In this document: piece by piece, positions 8,660 through 51,979 of the stretch
How positions within the stretch are numbered: the stretch's first letter is position 1
How the letters are laid out: each line of letters starts with the position of its first letter
DNA from: Streptomyces sp. NBC_00708
GTDB taxonomy: Bacteria > Actinomycetota > Actinomycetes > Streptomycetales > Streptomycetaceae
NCBI GenBank assembly: GCA_036226585.1
Contig: CP108997.1
Span: forward strand, 6,324,001 to 6,388,000
Direction of reading: 5' to 3'
Length of the DNA stretch: 64,000 bases
Notes under the pieces: model-generated
Seen by the model: only the letters and a program-made list of their open reading frames with translations
What the model was told of the DNA's origin: nothing
The model's database searches: none
Position numbers and translations under genes: made by a program

Positions 8660-10243
8660 TCAGCCCCGGAATCCCAGCAGTCCGTGCAGCACGCTGCCCC
8701 GGTCGCCGTCCGGACGCGCCGCCGGGCGGGCCGACTTGGCGGTTTCCGGTTTCGGGTCGGGGGTCTTCGCGCAGACCGCGTCCGCGTCGCCGCGGCCGGC
8801 GCGGGGGACGGTGCCCTTGGCGAGGTAGTCCGTCAGGTAGCGGTCCAGGCAGGCGTTGCCGCTCAGGGTGACGCCGTGGTTGGCGCCGCCCTGCTCGACG
8901 ACGAGGCGGGAGCCGCGCAGCTTGCGGTGGAGGGTCACTCCGCCCTCGTACGGGGTGGCCGCGTCGTCCGTCGCCTGGAAGAGGAGCACCGGGGGCAGGG
9001 CGTGGTTGGACACCCGTACCGGATTCAGCGGCTCCACCGGCCAGTCGGCGCACGGGGCGTTGTACCAGGTGTTGCCCCAGGCCATGAAGGGCGCCTTCGC
9101 GTGCACCCGCCAGGTGTCGTTGCGCCAGGTGTTCCAGTCGCGCGGCCAGGAGGCGTCCCGGCACTGCACGGCCGTGTAGACCGAGTAGCCGTTGTCGCCG
9201 TCCGCGTCCACCGCGCCGAACCGTTCGAAGGCCGCGACGAGCGGCTTCTCGTCCTTGTCGTTGACGTAGGCGGCGAACGCCTCGGCCAGGACCGGCCAGT
9301 AGCCGTTGTAGTAGCCGCCCGGCAGGAACGTGTCGTCCAGCTCGCCCGCGCCGACCTTCTTGCCCGCCGGACGCTTCTTCACCGCGTCCCGCATCCGGTA
9401 CCAGGCAGCCTCGACCTTCGCCGGGTCGCTGCCCAGGCGGTAGGTGGCGTCGTACTTGGCGACCCACGCGGCGAATGCCTTGTGCCGGGCGTCGAACGCG
9501 TAGTCCTGGGTCAGGTTGTCCTCGTACCAGACGCCCTCGGGGTCCACGTTCGAGTCGAGCACCAGGCGCCGGACGCGGTCCGGGAACAGCTTGGCGTACA
9601 CCGCGCCGAGGTAGGTGCCATAGGAGTAACCGAAGTAGTTGAGCTGCCGCGCGCCGGTCGCGCGCCGGATCACGTCCAGGTCCTTGGCCGCGCTCACCGT
9701 GTCCGTGTAAGGGAGCATGTCCGGGTACTTCTCGCCGCAGGCGGCCGCGAAGTCACGGGCGCGGTTGCGGTTGACCCGCTCGCCCCCGAGGGACTGCGGC
9801 ACCGGGTCGGGCCGGACCGGGTCGAAGTACCCGGGCACGCAGTCCAGGGCGGGCCGGCTCTTCCCGACGCCGCGCGGGTCAAAACCGATCACGTCGTACT
9901 GCGAGGCGACCGCCTTCGGCAGCGACGCGGCGACGAAGGCGGCCATCGAGAGGCCGCTGCCGCCGGGGCCGCCCGGGTTCACGAGCAGCGGACCCTGGAA
10001 GGTCTTCGAGGTGTGCGGCACGCGGGTCAGCGCCAGAGTGACCTGGCGGCCCGCCGGGTCGTCGTGGTCGAGGGGTGCGCGTACCGTCGCGCACTGGAGC
10101 GTCGGGGACGGCTTCGTCCCGCAGTCCTTCCAGGCGAGCGGAGCGGCACGCGGTGTCGCGGTGTCCGCCGCGGCCGGTGCGGCGGTCACCAGACCGGCGA
10201 CCGTCGCACCGGCGGCGAGCAGCATGACTGGACGGTTCGTCAT
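8660..10243 (-). CDS. Secreted alpha/beta-hydrolase, tripeptidyl-aminopeptidase (TAP) family
   Basis: Exported serine peptidase of 527 residues, likely releasing N-terminal tripeptides outside the cell. A signal peptide (TNRPVMLLAAGATVAG, cleavage near residue 27 after an Ala-rich stretch) precedes an alpha/beta-hydrolase fold. The oxyanion region is NPGGPGGSG, the nucleophile elbow GYSYG has Ser207, the acidic residue lies in FQATDDAATP and the His in GGANHGV. The C-terminal TAP extension with GNACLDRYLTDYL is present. A GGGAGG precedes the ATG. It is apparently monocistronic. Confidence 0.9.
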   Translation of the reverse strand: MTNRPVMLLAAGATVAGLVTAAPAAADTATPRAAPLAWKDCGTKPSPTLQCATVRAPLDHDDPAGRQVTLALTRVPHTSKTFQGPLLVNPGGPGGSGLSMAAFVAASLPKAVASQYDVIGFDPRGVGKSRPALDCVPGYFDPVRPDPVPQSLGGERVNRNRARDFAAACGEKYPDMLPYTDTVSAAKDLDVIRRATGARQLNYFGYSYGTYLGAVYAKLFPDRVRRLVLDSNVDPEGVWYEDNLTQDYAFDARHKAFAAWVAKYDATYRLGSDPAKVEAAWYRMRDAVKKRPAGKKVGAGELDDTFLPGGYYNGYWPVLAEAFAAYVNDKDEKPLVAAFERFGAVDADGDNGYSVYTAVQCRDASWPRDWNTWRNDTWRVHAKAPFMAWGNTWYNAPCADWPVEPLNPVRVSNHALPPVLLFQATDDAATPYEGGVTLHRKLRGSRLVVEQGGANHGVTLSGNACLDRYLTDYLAKGTVPRAGRGDADAVCAKTPDPKPETAKSARPAARPDGDRGSVLHGLLGFRG

Positions 10244-10258
10244 AGGGCCTCCCGTGAT

Positions 10259-10303
10259 GGGGAACACGGCTGCGGGTGACGCAGCCCCCGCCGCATGTTC
10301 CCC
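10259..10303 (-). terminator. Nested hairpin after the radical SAM gene
   Basis: Outer arms GGGGAACA (10259-10266) and TGTTCCCC (10296-10303) enclose an inner stem GGCTGCG/CGCAGCC (10268-10274 / 10280-10286). It lies between the stop of the radical SAM gene and the start of the TAP gene, both on the minus strand, so it may terminate the first and form part of the second gene's leader. Confidence 0.5.
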
Positions 10304-10359
10304 GCAATCGGCGCCGGAAGGACCCGTTGTGGTGAGAGATGACCCGTTTGCGCGACCGC

Positions 10360-11406
10360 TCAGAGCAGGGTCAGCTGGGTGGGCTCCGAACCGTCGAGCG
10401 GTGGATGCGTCTCGCGCCGGGGGAGCTTGCGCGCCGTGCCCCGGTGCGAGGGCCCGATGCCGTACTCGGCCGCCAGCTCGTGCACGTACCGGGTGATGCG
10501 CCGCTGGTACCAGGTCGGCGCGTAGGCGCCGTCCGCGTACAGCCGTTCGTAGCGCCGTACGAGGTGCGGGTGGTGGCGGCCCAGCCACTCCATGAACCAC
10601 TCGCGGGCGCCGGGGCGCAGATGCAGCACGAGCGGGGTCACCGAGGTGGCGCCGGCGGCGGCGATCGCGCGGACGGTGGCCCGCAGCTGCTCGGGGCTGT
10701 CGCCGAGGTGGGGGATGACGGGCGCCATCAGGACCCCGCAGCCGATGCCGGCCTCGCTCAGCTTCCGTACGGCGTCGAGCCGGCGCTCGGGCGAGGGTGT
10801 GCCCGGCTCCACGGTCCGCCACAGTTCGGGGTCGACGAAGCCCACCGAGACCGAGACGCCGACCTCGGTGACCTCGGCGGCCTGCCGCAGCAGCTCCAGG
10901 TCGCGCAGGATCAGCGTGCCCTTGGTCAGGATCGAGAACGGGTTCGCGTGGTCGCGCAGGGCGGTCAGGATGTCGGGCATCAGCCGGTAGCGGCCCTCCG
11001 CCCGCTGGTAGCAGTCGACGTTGGTGCCCATCGCGATGTGTGCCCCGTGCCAGCGCGGCGAGGCGATCTCGCGGCGGACCAGTTCGGGGGCGTTGACCTT
11101 GACGACGATCTGCGAGTCGAAGCCGTGCCCGGTGTCGAGGTCGAGATAGCTGTGGGTCTTGCGGGCGAAGCAGTACACGCACGCGTGCGAGCAGCCGCGG
11201 TACGGGTTCACCGTCCATTCGAACGGCATCCGGGAGGCCCCGGGCACCCGGTTCACGATCGAACGGGCCCGGACCTCGTGGAAGGTGATGCCGCGGAATT
11301 CAGGGGTGTCGAAGGTGCGTGTCGTCACCGCGTCCGCGGCGAAGAGCGCACCCGCACCGCTTGCGGGGGTGTTGGCGTTGTTCTCGGCCAGATTGTCCCA
11401 GCGCAT
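10360..11406 (-). CDS. Radical SAM protein, Rv2578c family (spore photoproduct lyase-like)
   Basis: 4Fe-4S/S-adenosylmethionine enzyme of 348 residues. The cluster ligands are Cys72, Cys76 and Cys79 in CSHACVYC (CX3CX2C). The typical family stretches NPYRGC and ILTKGT follow, and the TIM-barrel continues to about residue 290. Relatives are annotated as Rv2578c-like, and spore photoproduct lyase is the nearest named group; the substrate is unproven. The ATG has a strong GAGGAGG 5 nt upstream. A perfect SOS box (11440-11451) abuts the probable -10, so the gene is likely LexA-controlled and linked to DNA damage. It diverges from an SRPBCC gene. Confidence 0.88.
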   Translation of the reverse strand: MRWDNLAENNANTPASGAGALFAADAVTTRTFDTPEFRGITFHEVRARSIVNRVPGASRMPFEWTVNPYRGCSHACVYCFARKTHSYLDLDTGHGFDSQIVVKVNAPELVRREIASPRWHGAHIAMGTNVDCYQRAEGRYRLMPDILTALRDHANPFSILTKGTLILRDLELLRQAAEVTEVGVSVSVGFVDPELWRTVEPGTPSPERRLDAVRKLSEAGIGCGVLMAPVIPHLGDSPEQLRATVRAIAAAGATSVTPLVLHLRPGAREWFMEWLGRHHPHLVRRYERLYADGAYAPTWYQRRITRYVHELAAEYGIGPSHRGTARKLPRRETHPPLDGSEPTQLTLL

Positions 11407-42887: not shown

Positions 42888-44393
42888 CTACACCGGCCTC
42901 GGGCAGTACACCGTCAGCGCCTCCGGCAGCTTGTCGATCATCAGCTCGCTGCCGCTGCGGGCCACTTCGCCGTCGTACGCGTACGGCGTCCCGGGCTTCA
43001 GTCCGGAGATCCGCACCCGCTGCCGGCGCACCGCCGCGTGCATGGGGGAGCGGGTCAGCGGGCCCGCGACCGCCGCCGCCAGCAGTCGCAGGGCAGGGGT
43101 CCGGCCGCCGTGCACGACCCGTACGTCCAGCAGTCCGTCCGCGAGGTTGTGCCGGCGGCCCGGGGCCGGACCGACCCGCTGGAACAGGCCGTTGCCGACG
43201 AACAGCAGCCACAACGGGCGGCGCCTGCCCTGGAGTTCGGCCTCCAGCGGGCGCTCGCCCCGCAGTACGCGCAGGGCCGCCAGGACTCCGGCGGGCCAGC
43301 CGCCGATCCGGGGCGACCAGTGCTCCCGCATCCGCACGAGCTCCGGATACACGCCCAGGCTGAAGGCGTTCAGGAAGTACCCGTGCGCGCCGCCCGGCCC
43401 GTCCGGGCCCGGCCGGAAGCGGCCGAGGTCCACCCGCACCGCGCTTCCGGCGGCGAGCGCGGAGGACACATCGGCGACGGTCTCGATGCCCAGGTCGTAC
43501 GCGAAGTGGTTGAGGGTGCCGCCGGGGAACACCGCGAGCGGCAGCCCGTGCACCGCCGCCACGGCCGCCGCCTGGTTGACCGTGCCGTCCCCGCCGCACA
43601 CGCCGAGAGCCCGGCCCCGGCCCGCCGCCTTCTCCAGCTCGTCGGAGAGCAGGCCGGGCGAGCACTCGATGATCTCCGCCTGCGGCAGCGCGTCCCGCAC
43701 CAGCGAGGCCGTCGCCGTCGCCGTCCCCGACCGTTGGTTGACGACGACCACCAGGCCCTCCCCGTCGGGCAGGACGGGTGCGTCGGCCGGAGGTCTGCCC
43801 GGTGCGGGCAGCTGGTTCCTCGTCGGTATCACGCCGCGCAGGGCGAACGCCGCCCCCACGCCCAGGGCCACGCCGGCCACCACATCGCTCGGGTAGTGCA
43901 CCCCGGTGTAGACGCGGGACGCCGCGACGGACAGCGCGATGGGTGCGACGACGGCCCCCCAGCCCTTCGACTCCAGCGCCACCCCGGTGGCGAACGCGGC
44001 GGCCGACGCCGCGTGCCCCGAGGGGAACGACGTGGTCACCGGCTGCCGCTTCAGCTGCCGTATCACCGGCACGGCGTCCAGGATCGGCCGCTGCCTGCGG
44101 ACCGCCCCCTTGCCCACCGTGTTGATCGCGGCCGAGGCCACCGCGAGCGAGGCGATACCCCTCAGCGCGGCCCGCCGGGCCCGCGCACTGCCCCCGAAAG
44201 CGGCCATACCGGCCGCCGCGCCGACCCACAGGAGCCCGTGGTTGGCGCTGCGGCTCAGCCGGGGCAGCACCGGACCCGCGGCGGGCCAGTGCCGCTGGGC
44301 CAGATTCTGGAACACGGCGACATCGCGCCGGTGGAACCGGTCGCGCAGCCCGGCGATCCGGGACGGGACGGAAACATTGCTCGCTGACGACAT
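42888..44393 (-). CDS. Fusion of PAP2 phosphatase and diacylglycerol kinase
   Basis: Lipid-phosphate enzyme of 501 residues with two opposing domains. The N-terminal PAP2 domain (~1-210) has all three motifs (KGAVRRQRP, FPSGHAAS, SRVYTGVHYPSD) between hydrophobic helices. The C-terminal lipid kinase domain (from ~218) has VVVNQRSGT, CGGDGTVNQ and FPGGTLNHFA. One half dephosphorylates phosphatidate-like lipids and the other phosphorylates diacylglycerol-like lipids or sphingoid bases. Such fusions are known in actinobacteria. It diverges from an IclR regulator and is followed by a clear terminator. Confidence 0.92.
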   Translation of the reverse strand: MSSASNVSVPSRIAGLRDRFHRRDVAVFQNLAQRHWPAAGPVLPRLSRSANHGLLWVGAAAGMAAFGGSARARRAALRGIASLAVASAAINTVGKGAVRRQRPILDAVPVIRQLKRQPVTTSFPSGHAASAAAFATGVALESKGWGAVVAPIALSVAASRVYTGVHYPSDVVAGVALGVGAAFALRGVIPTRNQLPAPGRPPADAPVLPDGEGLVVVVNQRSGTATATASLVRDALPQAEIIECSPGLLSDELEKAAGRGRALGVCGGDGTVNQAAAVAAVHGLPLAVFPGGTLNHFAYDLGIETVADVSSALAAGSAVRVDLGRFRPGPDGPGGAHGYFLNAFSLGVYPELVRMREHWSPRIGGWPAGVLAALRVLRGERPLEAELQGRRRPLWLLFVGNGLFQRVGPAPGRRHNLADGLLDVRVVHGGRTPALRLLAAAVAGPLTRSPMHAAVRRQRVRISGLKPGTPYAYDGEVARSGSELMIDKLPEALTVYCPRPV

Positions 44394-44520
44394 GCGACAG
44401 CGGATACCCCGCCTCACCTCTCCGAACCAGCAGCCACGCCGCGGGTAGCCTGAGGTTCGTCACACCGGCCGCCGGCCGGCACACCGGACACAAGACCGAA
44501 CATGAGGGGGACGCGGGGCC

Positions 44521-45297: not shown

Positions 45298-45403
45298 CCG
45301 GCCGGCCCGCCCGTCCCGCTCCAGGGCGGGCGCGCCGCCCCGTTCCCTCGTATAAAGGTCCGGAGGGCGAACGGCGGGTCGGATCGGCGGCGAAGGAGGC
45401 CCG

Positions 45404-46654
45404 ATGGGCCGGGAGCGGACCGGGCGTCAGGAGCGGGCCACGCACACGGTGCGGGAGGACCGCGGGCCCGTACGGTACGGACCGCCGGCCCCCTGGCCGG
45501 GGCTGCCCGTGCTGCCGGAGCTGGCCGAGGTACTGGCCTCCGCCGCCGGCCGCGCCGCCCCCGAACCCGCCGGCGGATCGGCCGCCCTGCGCGAGGCCGC
45601 CTGCGGTTACTGGGAGCGGCGAGGACTGCGCTGCGGTCCCGAACACGTCGCCGCCGCTCCCGGCACCGCACCGCTGCTGCTCGCGCTGATCGCCGCGCAC
45701 GGGGGCGACGTGCTGCTGCCGCGCCCCTGCCCCGCCTCCTGGATCCCGCAGGCCCGGCTGCTCGGCCGGCCCGCCTACCAGGTGCCGACGCCCGCCGAGT
45801 GCGGCGGTGTGCCCGACCCGTACGCGCTCCTCGAAACCGTACGCAGAGTGCGCGCCGAGGGCGGCCGGCCGCGGCTCCTGCTGCTCTCGGTGGCCGACGA
45901 CCCCACCGCCACGGTCGCCCCGCCGGAACTCCTGCGCGAGGCCTGCGAGGCCGCCGTGGACGAGGGGCTGCACATCGTCAGCGACGAGACCTGGCGGGAC
46001 ACCCTGCACCGGCCGCACGACACGGTGCTGGTCAGCCCCGCCGAGATGTGCCCGGACGACGTCACCGTGGTCTGCGGCCTGTACGGGGCGCTGACCCCGG
46101 CCGCCTGGCCCGTCGCCGTCGCCCGCTTCCCCGGCACCGCGCGCTCCGCCGTACGCCACGCCCGCACGCTCGACGTCCTCACCGCGCTCGGCGCCTCGAT
46201 CGCGGGCCCGGTCGCCGCCGCCGCGGCCCACGCGCTGCGCGAGCCGCCCGCCGTCACCGAACGCGCCCGGCGCGCCGCCGCCCTGCACGCCCGGCTCGCC
46301 ACCGAGGCCCACCGCGCCGTCCTCGGCTGGGGCGCCGTCGCCCGCCCCCCGCAGGCCGGCCGCCACCTCTACGCGGACCTCGGCCCGCTGCGCTCCCGGC
46401 TCGCCGCCCGGGGAGTCACCGACTCCCTGGAGCTGGAGGAGTACCTCTCCGAACGGCTCGGCGCCCCCACCCCCGGCGGCCATCGCTTCGGCGACGAACT
46501 CGGCGCGCTCCGGGTGCGGCTGGGCACCGGCTCGCTCCTCGGAACGACCCCGGAGCAGCAGACCGGGGCCCTCACCGCCGCGGACCCCCTCGAATTGCCG
46601 CACATCGCGGCAGCGCTGAGCATTTTCCGAGCAGCCCTCGACACACCGCGCTGA
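45404..46654 (+). CDS. Aminotransferase class I/II-fold protein lacking every lysine (probable pseudoenzyme)
   Basis: 416-residue protein with the fold-type I aminotransferase layout: a GGSAALREAACGYWERRGL N-terminal helix, IVSDETWRDTL (the SDE that contacts the pyridine nitrogen, Asp194) and a VTVVCGLYGALTPAAWPVAVARF strand. In normal enzymes this strand carries SK, the Schiff-base lysine; here Gly228 occupies the place. No lysine occurs anywhere in the chain, so a PLP aldimine cannot form. The NPTG motif is also changed (DPTATV). AAGGAGG precedes the ATG, and a TATAAA hexamer lies at 45351-45356. It may be a regulatory or binding protein. The MBL gene follows 34 bp later. Confidence 0.85.
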   Translation: MGRERTGRQERATHTVREDRGPVRYGPPAPWPGLPVLPELAEVLASAAGRAAPEPAGGSAALREAACGYWERRGLRCGPEHVAAAPGTAPLLLALIAAHGGDVLLPRPCPASWIPQARLLGRPAYQVPTPAECGGVPDPYALLETVRRVRAEGGRPRLLLLSVADDPTATVAPPELLREACEAAVDEGLHIVSDETWRDTLHRPHDTVLVSPAEMCPDDVTVVCGLYGALTPAAWPVAVARFPGTARSAVRHARTLDVLTALGASIAGPVAAAAAHALREPPAVTERARRAAALHARLATEAHRAVLGWGAVARPPQAGRHLYADLGPLRSRLAARGVTDSLELEEYLSERLGAPTPGGHRFGDELGALRVRLGTGSLLGTTPEQQTGALTAADPLELPHIAAALSIFRAALDTPR

Positions 46655-46688: not shown

Positions 46689-47825
46689 ATGACGGACCAG
46701 ACCGAGCGTCCCCCGGTGCCTGTCCGGCAGACCTCCGCCGGACAGGCCCTCACCCGGGACGCACCCCCCGTGGCCTGCGGCGAGGTCGTCGCACCGCGTC
46801 CCCTCGGCGAGGTGCGCACCTGGCCCAGGAGCTTCGCGGACCGGCTCACCGCCCCGCTCCCCGGCGTCAGGGGCGTGTCACGACTGGCCCGCGAGCACGC
46901 CATCCGGCCCAACGCGGAGGGCCTGCGGCACATCCACCGTCTGCCGTACGCCCCCGAGCCCCTGCCGCCCGTCCCGGCCGGGGCCGGCTGCGTCACCTGG
47001 GCCGGACACGCCAGCTGGATCATCCGCACCGGCGGCCTCACGATCCTCGCCGACCCCGTCTGGTCCCGCCGCATCCTCGGCACCCCGGCCAGGATCACCC
47101 CCGTCGGCGTCCGCTGGGAGGACCTGCCGCCCGTCGACGCCGTCGTCATCAGCCACAACCACTACGACCACCTCGACGCCCCCACTCTGCGCAGACTGCC
47201 CCGGCACACCCCGCTGTTCGTCCCGGCGGGCCTCGGCCAGTGGTGCCGCCGCCGCGGCTTCGGCACCGTCACGGAACTCGACTGGTGGGAGTCGGCGCGG
47301 CTGGGAGGCGTCCGCTTCGACTTCGTCCCGTCCCACCACTGGTCCAAGCGCACCCTGACCGACACCTGCCGCTCGCTGTGGGGCGGCTGGGTCATCCAGG
47401 ACACCACCGGGGAGGGGCACGGCGGACGGATCTACTTCGCCGGCGACACCGGATACGGCCACTGGTTCACCGAGATCGGCCGCCGCCACCCCGGCATCGA
47501 CCTCGCCCTGCTGCCGATCGGCGCGTACGAGCCCCGCTGGTGGCTCGGCGACGTCCACACCGACCCCGAGGAGGCGGTCCAGGCGTACGAGGATCTCGGC
47601 GCCCGCGCCATGGCCCCGATGCACTGGGCGACCTTCCTGCTCTCCGCCGAACCGGTCCTCGAACCGCTCACCCGGCTCCGTACCGCCTGGCAGCGCGCCG
47701 GCCACCCCCGCGACCGTCTCTGGGACCTGCCCATCGGCGGCTCACGCCTGCTGGAACCCCGGCCGGCCGACGTCACCGCGCCCACCGCGCCCGCGTCCGG
47801 CGCCACACCGCGGGCGCCCCGCTGA
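46689..47825 (+). CDS. MBL-fold metallo-hydrolase, NAPE-PLD-like
   Basis: 378-residue metallo-beta-lactamase-fold hydrolase. The metal motif SHNHYDHLD has His156, His158, Asp160 and His161, with further ligands in YFAGDTGYG and APMHWATFLLS. The long N-terminal part and WAGHASWIIRTGG with WSRRILGT match the N-acylphosphatidylethanolamine phospholipase D/RomA-like group rather than true lactamases, so a lipid phosphodiester is a possible substrate. There is no signal peptide. It lies 34 bp after the lysine-free aminotransferase-like gene, probably the same operon. Its last 53 bp overlap the converging DedA gene. Confidence 0.87.
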   Translation: MTDQTERPPVPVRQTSAGQALTRDAPPVACGEVVAPRPLGEVRTWPRSFADRLTAPLPGVRGVSRLAREHAIRPNAEGLRHIHRLPYAPEPLPPVPAGAGCVTWAGHASWIIRTGGLTILADPVWSRRILGTPARITPVGVRWEDLPPVDAVVISHNHYDHLDAPTLRRLPRHTPLFVPAGLGQWCRRRGFGTVTELDWWESARLGGVRFDFVPSHHWSKRTLTDTCRSLWGGWVIQDTTGEGHGGRIYFAGDTGYGHWFTEIGRRHPGIDLALLPIGAYEPRWWLGDVHTDPEEAVQAYEDLGARAMAPMHWATFLLSAEPVLEPLTRLRTAWQRAGHPRDRLWDLPIGGSRLLEPRPADVTAPTAPASGATPRAPR

Positions 47826-48399
47826 TCAGCAGCGTCAGACCCACCGCCGCGACCACCCCCTGCCACGGCTCCGGGAACAGCGAACCGCCCAGGATGCCGA
47901 TCAGCTGATACGTCGCCGCCCACGCCAGACACGCCGGTACGTCGCCCCGGGCGAACCGCCGCAGTTCCATCCGGCCCAGCAGGCACGCCAGCATCACCGG
48001 AATCCGCCCGGCCGGCACCAGCCGCGACAGCACCAGCACCGTCGCCCCGTGCTCGTCCAGCTTCTGCTGCGCCTGCGCGAGCCGTTCCGGCGCCGCCCGG
48101 TCCCGGATCGTCCGCAGCCACCGCGAGCCGTTCTTCGACCGGACCCCCCGCTGCCCCAGCCAGTACAGGGATATGTCCCCCAGGAACGCCGCCGACGACG
48201 CCACCGCGAACACCACCAGCAAGGAGAACGGCGACGACTGGTGGAACGCCACCACGGCCGCCGAACTCACCAGCGCGCCCGTCGGCACCACCGGCACCAG
48301 GGCACCCAGCGCCACCAGCAGGAACAACGACGGATAACCGACCGCCTGCTGCGTCGACTCCGCGGGGAGCCGCGCCGTCTCCCGCAGGAACTCGATCAC
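47773..48399 (-). CDS. DedA family membrane protein
   Basis: Inner-membrane protein of 208 residues with about five hydrophobic segments. The DedA/SNARE-associated core is clear: PVVPTGALVSSAAVVAF, FLGDISLYWLGQRGV and LSRLVPAGRIPVMLACLLG with the conserved Arg and Pro. DedA proteins move polyprenyl or other phospholipids across the membrane and support proton-motive force. The GTG start is fixed by a 4-bp overlap (GTGA) with the stop of the upstream MBL gene, so the two are coupled. Tail-to-tail overlap of 53 bp with the other MBL gene. Confidence 0.88.
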   Translation of the reverse strand: MIEFLRETARLPAESTQQAVGYPSLFLLVALGALVPVVPTGALVSSAAVVAFHQSSPFSLLVVFAVASSAAFLGDISLYWLGQRGVRSKNGSRWLRTIRDRAAPERLAQAQQKLDEHGATVLVLSRLVPAGRIPVMLACLLGRMELRRFARGDVPACLAWAATYQLIGILGGSLFPEPWQGVVAAVGLTLLISGAPAVWRRTRARWAR

Positions 48400-49178
48400 C
48401 CGGAGCACCCCGGCCGCACCCGCTCGCCGTGCGCCAGCCGGTGCACCACGACCTCCGGCGCCGCCATCGCCGCCTTCCGCACGAACTCCTCGCCCGGCGC
48501 GTGGAACTCGTGCGGCCGGACCCCGTCCATCCCGATCGGCCAGTACGTGCCGTAGTGCACCGGCACCGCCGCGCGCGGCCGCAGCCGGGTCAGCGCCTGC
48601 GCCGCCCGCCCCGCGTCGAGGTGCCCGTGGCCCAGATAGGGCCCCCAGCCGCCGACCGGCAGCAGCGCCACGTCCACCGGGCCCACCGCCCGCGCCATGT
48701 CGTCGAAGAGCCCGGTGTCCCCCGCGAAGTACGTACGCGCCGCGCCCTCCACCACGTACCCCAGGGCGGGGGAGCGGTGCGGGCCCAGCGGCAGCCGCCG
48801 GCCGTCGTGCAGCGCGGGGACGGCCCGGACCCGCACATCGCCGACGCACACCTCGTCGCCCGCCACCACCTCGGTGATCCGCAGCCCGCGCGCCCGGCGC
48901 AGCAGCCGCAGCCCGGGAACCGAGCGCACCGAGCCACGCGGCACGAGCACCCGGGCCCCCGGGGCGACGCGCGCCAGCGACGGCAGATGCAGATGGTCGG
49001 AGTGCAGATGGGAGATCAGGACCACATCGGCCACGGCCGCGTCCGGACCGGGCAGCGCACCCCGGCGGCGCCGCAGATGCGCGAAGCGCCGTACGAACAG
49101 CGGATCGGTCAGGAAGCGGACCCCGGAGTCCTCGATCGTGCACGTGGCATGACCCCACCAGGTGATCTCCACCGGCAC
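48396..49178 (-). CDS. MBL-fold metal-dependent hydrolase, UlaG-like
   Basis: 260-residue metallo-beta-lactamase-fold protein: ITWWGHATCTIEDSG at the start, metal motif ISHLHSDHLHL, then YFAGDTGLFDDMARAVGPVDVALLPVGGWGP and AVPVHYGTYWP. It is shorter than its neighbour across the DedA gene and of the UlaG/YtnP-like group; the substrate is unknown. GTG 49178 is chosen because AAGGAGG lies 8 nt upstream. The ATG at 49199 would place that ribosome site inside the gene. It overlaps the DedA gene by 4 bp. Confidence 0.85.
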   Translation of the reverse strand: MPVEITWWGHATCTIEDSGVRFLTDPLFVRRFAHLRRRRGALPGPDAAVADVVLISHLHSDHLHLPSLARVAPGARVLVPRGSVRSVPGLRLLRRARGLRITEVVAGDEVCVGDVRVRAVPALHDGRRLPLGPHRSPALGYVVEGAARTYFAGDTGLFDDMARAVGPVDVALLPVGGWGPYLGHGHLDAGRAAQALTRLRPRAAVPVHYGTYWPIGMDGVRPHEFHAPGEEFVRKAAMAAPEVVVHRLAHGERVRPGCSG

Positions 49179-49398
49179 GCCACCGCCTCCTTCGCTCATG
49201 GACCTCCGCGACCCCACCACACCTGCCCCGACGAGCCTACGACCAGTCCTGTCCGGGCGGCCCGCCCACCCCGGCGCACCCGTGGATCACGCTTCCGGTC
49301 CCGTGCCCCCGTGCGCCCCCTCACCGCCCCGGAACGCGCCCTCGGCCACGGTGTGCGGCCGCATAGGGTCGGGGAACGCCGAGCACGGGAGAAGGGCC

Positions 49399-49803: not shown

Positions 49804-49888
49804 CCGGCCGGGGGGACCGCCCGTACCGCTGTGAAAGGCTGGGGCGGGGCCCGGAACGGCAGGGCCCGGACGTGAGGTGACGAACGGC

Positions 49889-51979
49889 GTGGGCGACAGG
49901 CGATGGCGGCGAGCCGGCAGCGCCCTGATGCGCGTGATCGCGGTCTGGGCCGTCTCGACGCTCACCATGCTGGCGCTCGCGGGCATCCTCCCCGACTTCC
50001 GGCTCCAGTCGCCCGACGGCGACAGCATCACCAGGACCGCCTTCGCCGCGGCCTGGGGCGCGGGCGCCTTCGGACTGCTCTCCGCCCTGGTCTGGCCCGT
50101 GCTCGTACGGGCGCTGCTCATCGTGCCGGCCTTCGTCCTCGGCCTGCTCGTCTTCTTCCTCAACGGCTCGCTGCTGCTGATCGCGCTCCGGCTCATCCCG
50201 GACGGCCGGGGCGCCGCCGCCCCGGAGACCGCCGTCGCCGTCGCGGCCGTGATGTCCGCCGTCGCCTCCGCCACCTCCACCGCCCTCGCCGTGCGCGACG
50301 ACAACGCCTACCGCCGCCGCCTCTCCCGCCTGGCCGACCGGCGCCGCCGCCGCACCGGCACGGGCGACGCGCGCGGCGGCCCGCCGGGCACCGTCTTCAT
50401 CCAGCTGGACGGGGTCGGCCACGACGCCCTCGTGGCGGCCGCCGCCGGGGGCGTGATGCCGACCGTCGCCCACTGGCTGGCGGAAGCCGGAGGACACCGG
50501 CTCACGCCCTGGCGCACCGACTGGTCCAGCCAGACCGGCGCCAGCCAGCTCGGCATCCTGCACGGCAGCAACCACGACGTCCCCGCCTTCCGCTGGTACG
50601 AGAAGGAGACCGGCGTCGTCATGGTCTCCAGCAAGCCCGCGAGCGCCCTGGAGCTCCAGCGCCGGGCCATCACCCGCACCCGGGACGGCGGACTCCTCAC
50701 ACTCGACGGCGCCAGCCGCGGCAACCTCTTCAGCGGCGGCGCGAACCAGCTCGCGCTCGTCCTGTCCATGGCCGCCAGGCTCGGCAAGGGCCGCCGGTCG
50801 CGGGCCGGGTACTTCGCCTACTTCTCCGACCCCGCCAACGCCGTCCGCACCGCCGGCTCCTTCGCCGCGGAGGTCTGCCGCGAGATCGCCCAGTCCACCC
50901 GCTCCCGCCTCCGCAAGGAGACGCCCCGCATCAAGCGCGGCGGCCTGTACCCCTTCATCCGCGCCTTCGCGACCGTCGTCGAACGCGATGTGGTGGTCGC
51001 CGCCGTGATCGGCGACATGTTCGCCGGACGGACCGCGGTCTACGCCGACCTCGTCGCGTACGACGAGGTCGCCCACCACTCGGGACCGCGCAGCCGGGAC
51101 GCCGAGAAGGTGCTCGCCCGCCTCGACCGGGCGCTCGCCCTGATCACCGAGGTCGCCGAACAGGCCCCGCGCACCTACCGGATCGTGCTCCTGTCCGACC
51201 ACGGCCAGAGCCCGGGGGACACCTTCGCCGGCGTGTACGGGCTGACCCTCAAGGACCTCGTGCGGGCGGGCAGCGGACTGCCCGTGCCCCGGCGCGCGCA
51301 GCGCTCCCGCAGCGCATCCGAGGCACGCGACGCGGTCCGGATCGCCCTCCACCGGCCCGTCACCGAAGGCCGGGAGGAGCAGGTCGCGACCCCCTCCGAC
51401 CCGGTCGTCCTCGCCTCCGGGAACCTCGGCCTGATCTCGTTCCCCGACATCGAGGGCCGCGCGACCCTGGAGCAGCTGGAGCACCGCCACCCCGCACTGC
51501 TCTCCACCCTCGCCAACCACCCGGGCATCGGCTTCCTGCTCGTCCGCGGCGAGCGGGACGGCTCGGTGGTGCTGGCCCGCGACGGGGTCCGGGTGCCGGT
51601 GGCGGACCTGGCGGACGGAGAGGGGCCGCTGACCCCGTACGGTCCGGGCGCGGCGGACGCGATCCGGCGCACGGACACCTTCCCGCACGTCGCCGACGTC
51701 ATGGTCAACTCCATGTACGACCCCGCCACCGGCACCGTGCACGCCTTCGAGGAACAGATCGGCTCGCACGGCGGCCTGGGCGGCGACCAGTCCCGGCCGT
51801 TCCTGCTGTGGCCGCGCGAGCTGACGGACCCGCTGGACGCCGTCACCGACGAGGACGGGAAGCGCCCGGACGAACTCGTCGGGGCCGAGGCCGTGCACCG
51901 CGTCCTCCGCCACTGGCTCCAGGAGGCGTCCGGCCCCCAGGTGCCGGTGCCCCCGGACGGGGAGGCCGGCCGCGCGTGA
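49889..51979 (+). CDS. Membrane protein: phage-holin-like domain fused to alkaline-phosphatase-superfamily domain
   Basis: About 696 residues. The first ~135 residues hold four hydrophobic segments of the phage_holin_4_2 (YvlD/DUF360-like) kind (IAVWAVSTLTMLALAGILPDF, ALIVPAFVLGLLVFFLNG-like). The rest is a type I phosphodiesterase/alkaline-phosphatase fold: metal residues in FIQLDGVGHDAL, catalytic Thr/Ser region SQTGASQLGILHG, AYDEVAHHSG, LLSDHGQSPG and a late His in IGSHGGLGG. It probably cleaves phosphate esters at the membrane. The GTG at 49889 has GAGGTGA 8 nt upstream; GTG 49877 is an alternative. Its stop abuts that of the converging LacI gene. Confidence 0.85.
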   Translation: MGDRRWRRAGSALMRVIAVWAVSTLTMLALAGILPDFRLQSPDGDSITRTAFAAAWGAGAFGLLSALVWPVLVRALLIVPAFVLGLLVFFLNGSLLLIALRLIPDGRGAAAPETAVAVAAVMSAVASATSTALAVRDDNAYRRRLSRLADRRRRRTGTGDARGGPPGTVFIQLDGVGHDALVAAAAGGVMPTVAHWLAEAGGHRLTPWRTDWSSQTGASQLGILHGSNHDVPAFRWYEKETGVVMVSSKPASALELQRRAITRTRDGGLLTLDGASRGNLFSGGANQLALVLSMAARLGKGRRSRAGYFAYFSDPANAVRTAGSFAAEVCREIAQSTRSRLRKETPRIKRGGLYPFIRAFATVVERDVVVAAVIGDMFAGRTAVYADLVAYDEVAHHSGPRSRDAEKVLARLDRALALITEVAEQAPRTYRIVLLSDHGQSPGDTFAGVYGLTLKDLVRAGSGLPVPRRAQRSRSASEARDAVRIALHRPVTEGREEQVATPSDPVVLASGNLGLISFPDIEGRATLEQLEHRHPALLSTLANHPGIGFLLVRGERDGSVVLARDGVRVPVADLADGEGPLTPYGPGAADAIRRTDTFPHVADVMVNSMYDPATGTVHAFEEQIGSHGGLGGDQSRPFLLWPRELTDPLDAVTDEDGKRPDELVGAEAVHRVLRHWLQEASGPQVPVPPDGEAGRA

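Follow-up and report, generated by a model that had tools for sequence, protein, structure and literature searches.

The window analysed here, a stretch of 64,000 nucleotides from Streptomyces sp. NBC_00708, harbors a gene for a protein of the fold-type I aminotransferase fold, followed on the same strand by a gene for a metallo-hydrolase (Table 1). The Pfam family PF00155 (Aminotran_1_2) matches the former protein with an E value of 1.1e-11, and the best NCBIfam models score far below their own cut-offs. The closest named proteins among the matches listed are from Streptomyces, and most named members among these matches are labeled 'aminotransferase class I/II-fold pyridoxal phosphate-dependent enzyme'. 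The fold, compared by the VIA-align second look of Foldseek, is predicted to be intact. The protein contains 44 arginines and no lysine. GLYG is at 225-228, SDE at 193-195, and DDPTA at 165-169, where the Lys-bearing relatives described below have DNPTG.

These features (416 residues without lysine, Gly228 in GLYG, the retained Asp194 of SDE, and the altered NPTG loop) had been given in a preliminary description of the locus, and all were re-read in the window. The gene had also been called intact and well expressed by its ribosome site. The frame is whole and AAGGAGG is present, but good expression goes beyond what this motif gives.

Table 1. Positions of the genes, the ribosome-binding motif, and the cofactor-site codons in the window
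Feature	Position	Strand	Remark
PAP2 phosphatase fused to a diacylglycerol-kinase domain	42888-44417	-	upstream, on the strand opposite to the pseudoenzyme
AAGGAGG, Shine-Dalgarno-like	45393..45399	+	4 bases 5' of ATG
Lys-less aminotransferase-fold pseudoenzyme, 416 aa	45404..46654	+	intact frame
Codon 166, Asp for the Asn of NPTG	45899..45901	+	Asp in 96/96 Lys-less, Asn in 22/22 Lys-bearing relatives
Codon 194, Asp of SDE kept	45983..45985	+	96/96 Lys-less, 21/22 Lys-bearing
Codon 228, Gly where Lys-bearing relatives have the presumed aldimine Lys	46085..46087	+	in register with 1b5o/1bjw/5wmh
Codon 236, Pro for the presumed PLP-phosphate Arg of GWR	46109..46111	+	Pro in 95/96 and Asn in 1/96 Lys-less, Arg in 22/22 Lys-bearing
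Codon 370, Arg in register with the presumed substrate-carboxylate Arg	46511..46513	+	register with 5wmh
NAPE-PLD-like metallo-hydrolase (MBL)	46689..47825	+	34 bases downstream of the pseudoenzyme; PF12706; PDB 4qn9, E 3e-59
Second MBL protein	48396-49220	-	PF12706
Fusion of a holin-like 4-TM domain (PF04020) and a type I phosphodiesterase domain (PF01663)	49877-51979	+	part of the conserved neighborhood

Residues of the cofactor site

The residue comparison comprised 118 distinct relatives from whole genomes, of which 22 have a lysine at column 228 and 96 do not; identical rows and both pieces of a broken copy in genome G005 were dropped before these counts. Lysine at this column (0/96 and 22/22) defines the two groups, and only the other columns are independent. 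The register was taken from the solved aminotransferases 1b5o, 1bjw, and 5wmh. We take column 228 to be the aldimine lysine, column 236 the arginine at the PLP phosphate, column 53 the tyrosine from the neighbor subunit (Tyr70-type), column 110 the ring-stacking aromatic residue, columns 166 and 197 the two residues at O3', Asp194 the aspartate at the pyridine nitrogen, and Arg370 the arginine for the substrate carboxylate. Arg372 was considered for the last role, which the alignment with 5wmh places at Arg370.

The two groups exhibit distinct patterns. Tyr53, Lys89, Trp110, Asn166, Tyr197, Arg236, and Arg370 are each present in 22/22 of the Lys-bearing relatives, while Tyr53, Lys89, Trp110, Asn166, and the phosphate arginine are each found in 0/96 of the Lys-less ones. 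In the latter group, column 197 is Trp in 73 and Tyr in 12 sequences, and column 225 is Asp in 92 of the 96, yet Gly in the window protein. Asp194 and Arg370 are retained, the latter in 91/96 with His in the other 5/96. As read from the sequences, the loss extends over the cofactor site and is more than that of one residue.

The aldimine lysine is absent (0/121) from the window protein and the 120 best homologues listed, and Gly228, Pro236, and Asp194 are each present in 121/121 of the same set. A sequencing error is therefore ruled out, and recent decay was rejected on the same counts. Since none of these 120 homologues carries the catalytic lysine, the preliminary view of an intact and conserved pseudoenzyme is upheld. 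A catalytic lysine shifted to another column was considered and rejected, the commonest lysine column among the 96 being 409, in 20 sequences. Replacement of the lysine by His was likewise rejected (0/96), and neither a new invariant His nor a new invariant Cys is found at column 228 in the 96 Lys-less sequences.

A Lys-bearing paralogue is encoded in the same genome at L035:5534-6766, within the locus L035:4137-11779 (G000:C1 about 3650136-3657778). Its neighbors are KamA-like radical SAM, adenylation-domain, PQQ-like, and FabD-like proteins, all below the NCBIfam cut-offs, and the locus looks like a biosynthetic cluster. Over the Lys-bearing loci, a KamA-like radical SAM neighbor is found in 8 and a LysR-like neighbor in 10.

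Lysine content of the family

The lysine content was compared over the window and 33 same-genus neighborhoods, in which the gene calls are crude and GC3-based. Lysine is entirely absent from 20/32 of the called family members and from 0/75 of the called non-family proteins of 350-480 aa, 11/75 of which have at most one; the lysine share is 0.12% in the family versus 1.33% over all called ORFs. Shorter proteins there are often Lys-free (24/145 at 200-300 aa), as are 12/30 of the neighboring MBL48396 family.

Among the best 120 homologues listed, the lysine number is zero in 41, one in 66, two in 8, and three in 5. Among the 96 Lys-less relatives it is zero in 55 and 1-3 in 41, with a mean of 0.52, at which about 59% would be expected by chance to have none. 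The 22 Lys-bearing sisters have 2-5 lysines with a mean of 3.5, of which two are invariant (K89 and K228) and 1.5 lie elsewhere. In the core columns outside K89 and K228, lysine falls from 1.05 in the sisters to 0.21 in the Lys-less group. This further drop is real but small, and in a family so poor in lysine the zero count of the window protein is nothing out of the ordinary. The missing catalytic lysine is a family trait, and the absence of every lysine is not.

The complete absence of lysine had initially been taken to suggest selection. Selection on Lys-freeness itself, for example to escape pupylation, would fit the low lysine share of the family relative to its surroundings, and would also fit the frequency of lysine deserts in proteasome-bearing actinobacteria (35.4% of the filtered S. 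coelicolor proteins, according to PMC10665810). Nevertheless, it is very unlikely, because the sister group is already Lys-poor, 41/96 of the Lys-less relatives have 1-3 lysines, and the 55/96 with none agree with the chance expectation. As to whether orthologues share the two traits, the catalytic lysine is absent in all of the 120 best homologues listed, while global freedom from lysine holds in 55/96 of the Lys-less relatives only.

Distribution, selection, and the neighboring hydrolase

A match is found in 36/37 same-genus genomes (own included), counting a contig-end piece (G001), a partly masked copy (G010), and the copy broken in frame (G005); in the remaining genome, G028, the match is weak (E 6e-5). 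A tree built from 64 rows (22/22 Lys-bearing and 42/96 Lys-less) has one branch with 100/100 support that parts the two groups. The tree is unrooted, and one origin of the Lys-less clade would be its simplest reading, short of proof. All 96 Lys-less rows belong to family f1. Among 296 genomes sampled from the class, 40 outside f1 carry a match, and the 16 that were read are all Lys-bearing (16/16). The source names of the Lys-less proteins include Streptomyces, Streptantibioticus, and Actinacidiphila, and the clade is therefore taken to be that of the Streptomycetaceae.

The omega values, estimated by NG86 and rough in such GC-rich genes, range over 0.14-0.33 for the 12 Lys-less pairs that are closest; over 108 pairs with dS of 0.05-0.35 the median is 0.25 and the highest value 0.51. 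The medians over all pairs are higher, at 0.45 (Lys-less) and 0.52 (Lys-bearing). In the Lys-less group 91/401 columns are at least 95% conserved, and 27 of these are less than 60% conserved in the Lys-bearing group. Several of the 27 are charged and, in the predicted model, lie on two helices (139-151 and 174-186); such positions may form an interface.

A hydrolase gene lies downstream on the same strand in 87/96 of the Lys-less loci (86 nearly complete, 1 fragment) versus 0/22 of the Lys-bearing loci; an earlier count by motif (84/96) missed some and is replaced by this one. The proposed link with the MBL gene is thus borne out. A start codon overlaps the stop by 4 bases in 41/84 of the junctions read. 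By contrast, the pairing with an IclR regulator that had also been proposed does not hold, an IclR gene being present at 1/33 other loci, and this gene was rejected as part of the unit.

Among 297 genomes of the family, the hydrolase is present in 150/177 with a clear match (E below 1e-126, without a residue check), in 21/43 with a weak or partial match, and in 3/77 with no match. Of the last three, two (G272 and G305) are at contig ends. In 16 of the 21 weak-match genomes, what lies beside the hydrolase is a Lys-less sequence in 14, a contig end in one (G304), and none in one (G155). Ten further lower-scoring matches were read, and 10/10 are Lys-less and adjoin the hydrolase. G290 and G155 have the hydrolase with no adjoining pseudoenzyme. 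Outside f1, a hydrolase of 56-61% identity occurs in 8 genomes; in the four with both places known (G355, G418, G471, and G569), it is apart from the aminotransferase relative.

The hydrolase is absent downstream in 9/96 of the Lys-less loci, and pseudoenzymes lacking it occur at several places in the tree (L064, L116, L121, L118/L119, and L122). Pairs from genomes lacking the hydrolase have omega values of 0.15-0.30. Within the family, the hydrolase is thus rare without the pseudoenzyme, while the latter persists without the hydrolase, still under purifying selection. A strict hydrolase-subunit model was rejected on these grounds: because the pseudoenzyme survives in the 9/96 loci, it is more than a subunit of the hydrolase.

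One same-genus locus (L070, G005:C1:6470000-6489900, about 9899-11087) has lost both genes together: the copy of the pseudoenzyme is broken in frame, and the hydrolase neighbor is missing. In L159-L165 and L172, from genomes many of which fall below 7 Mb, the pseudoenzyme has diverged strongly round the lost lysine or is split over separate matches, still beside the hydrolase.

The order PAP2-DAGK fusion, aminotransferase relative, MBL, VTT (DedA-type), and second MBL is likewise preserved in genus g20 (L174-L183, 10/10), and hints, purely by association, at membrane-lipid metabolism. The PAP2-diacylglycerol-kinase fusion is near the pseudoenzyme in many of the loci, though not in every one. 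The second MBL is convergent with the first across the VTT/DedA-type gene, is conserved, and is about 33-36% identical to it in neighboring genomes.

Interpretation and comparison with known systems

Taken as a whole, it is reasonably probable that the gene encodes a non-catalytic protein kept by selection in a conserved gene pair, with the hydrolase as its probable partner. The loss of PLP chemistry appears nearly certain and a selected function highly probable, while physical partnership with the hydrolase is tentative. The basis, read from sequence, consists of the loss of the aldimine lysine and of most PLP-holding residues, the predicted fold, the roughly 90 conserved columns, the 27 newly conserved ones, and the gene pair. 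A fold-type I aminotransferase gene would have given rise, probably once and before the Streptomycetaceae diversified, to a protein that has lost PLP binding and works as a binding protein, most likely a regulatory or scaffolding partner. This binding may take place through the newly conserved charged positions of helices 139-151 and 174-186 and loop 359-364, and the old pocket (Asp166, Asp194, and Arg370) would be either structural or a holder of another small ligand. The usual partner would probably be the adjoining hydrolase; because the gene is also kept in loci that lack the hydrolase, there must be another role as well.

Two classic active-site residues, Asp194 and Arg370, are still in place, so that a ligand or a reaction is conceivable. 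A new PLP-free enzyme, with a pocket rebuilt from Asp166 and Asp194 (each 96/96) and Arg370 and perhaps acting on a substrate or product of the hydrolase, would also account for the coupling of the two genes. It is unlikely, considering that column 228 has gained no invariant His or Cys and that the former lysine stretch, 224-236, is strongly variable in L143, L144, and L159-L163, which fits a dead site better. A related speculation, rather improbable, is that the pocket was rebuilt as an acidic site, made up of Asp166 and Asp194 and, in the majority of members, also Asp225 (which the window protein lacks), that binds an amine or another cation and gates the coupled hydrolase as a sensor for membrane-lipid turnover. 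The suggestion that the protein may bind PLP or PMP, the cofactor being held without a covalent bond, has in its favor that Asp194, which usually pairs with the pyridine nitrogen, is kept; it is weakened by the clade-wide disappearance, together with the lysine, of the phosphate arginine, Tyr53, Trp110, and Asn166, and appears highly improbable.

Active sites are shared across fold-type I dimers, and with its predicted fold intact the protein might pair with an active aminotransferase and form the silent subunit of a heterodimer, in the manner of the SPTLC1/SPTLC2 pair. This is distinctly unlikely, because the tyrosine that would reach the PLP of the partner is at 0/96, the fetched Lys-less neighborhoods hold no second match to the family, and Lys-bearing paralogues occur in 4/37 same-genus genomes only. 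Least probable of all is a slowly decaying pseudogene. The broken copy in G005 that has also lost its hydrolase, the absence beside the hydrolase in G290 and G155, and the variability in some lineages are what decay would produce, but the matches in 36/37 same-genus genomes, the omega values well under 1 in close pairs, and the 91 columns at least 95% conserved speak for a maintained gene.

Among the open-licence papers listed, no title or abstract start describes the Lys-less clade, and those on NAPE-PLD with Streptomyces gave no lead. Nor did the papers listed on pseudoenzyme aminotransferases, or PMC9309667 and PMC6522883, yield one.

By sequence criteria, this pseudoenzyme clade is real and conserved, and its gene partner is conserved as well. 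Its members, having lost the required lysine, would need proof before they are counted as transaminases. The clade also provides a natural experiment, offering apparently one loss of PLP chemistry, a predicted intact fold, a Lys-bearing sister group, and a conserved gene partner together with the repeated absence of that partner.

The hydrolase matches NAPE-PLD (4qn9) over residues 98-355, with the HxHxDH motif (SHNHYDHLD) and the later metal motifs present and aligned; it is bacterial, and the likeness is one of sequence. SPTLC1 is a non-catalytic fold-type I subunit, likewise Lys-less and kept by selection; unlike SPTLC1, the pseudoenzyme is not accompanied by a gene for a Lys-bearing partner in the neighborhoods fetched. 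Yeast ALT2, likewise a paralogue of an active alanine aminotransferase and reportedly inactive, belongs to a single-species pair, unlike the Lys-less clade. With the class I/II fold-type I aminotransferases (Thermus AspAT 1bjw; Arabidopsis prephenate aminotransferase 5wmh/5wml) the pseudoenzyme has its fold in common, but it is without their aldimine lysine, phosphate arginine, Tyr70-type tyrosine, stacking Trp, and NPTG Asn. The Lys-bearing sister group, e.g. L035, has no MBL downstream and, unlike the pseudoenzyme, keeps the PLP residues, while the two share about 40% full-length identity and common descent.
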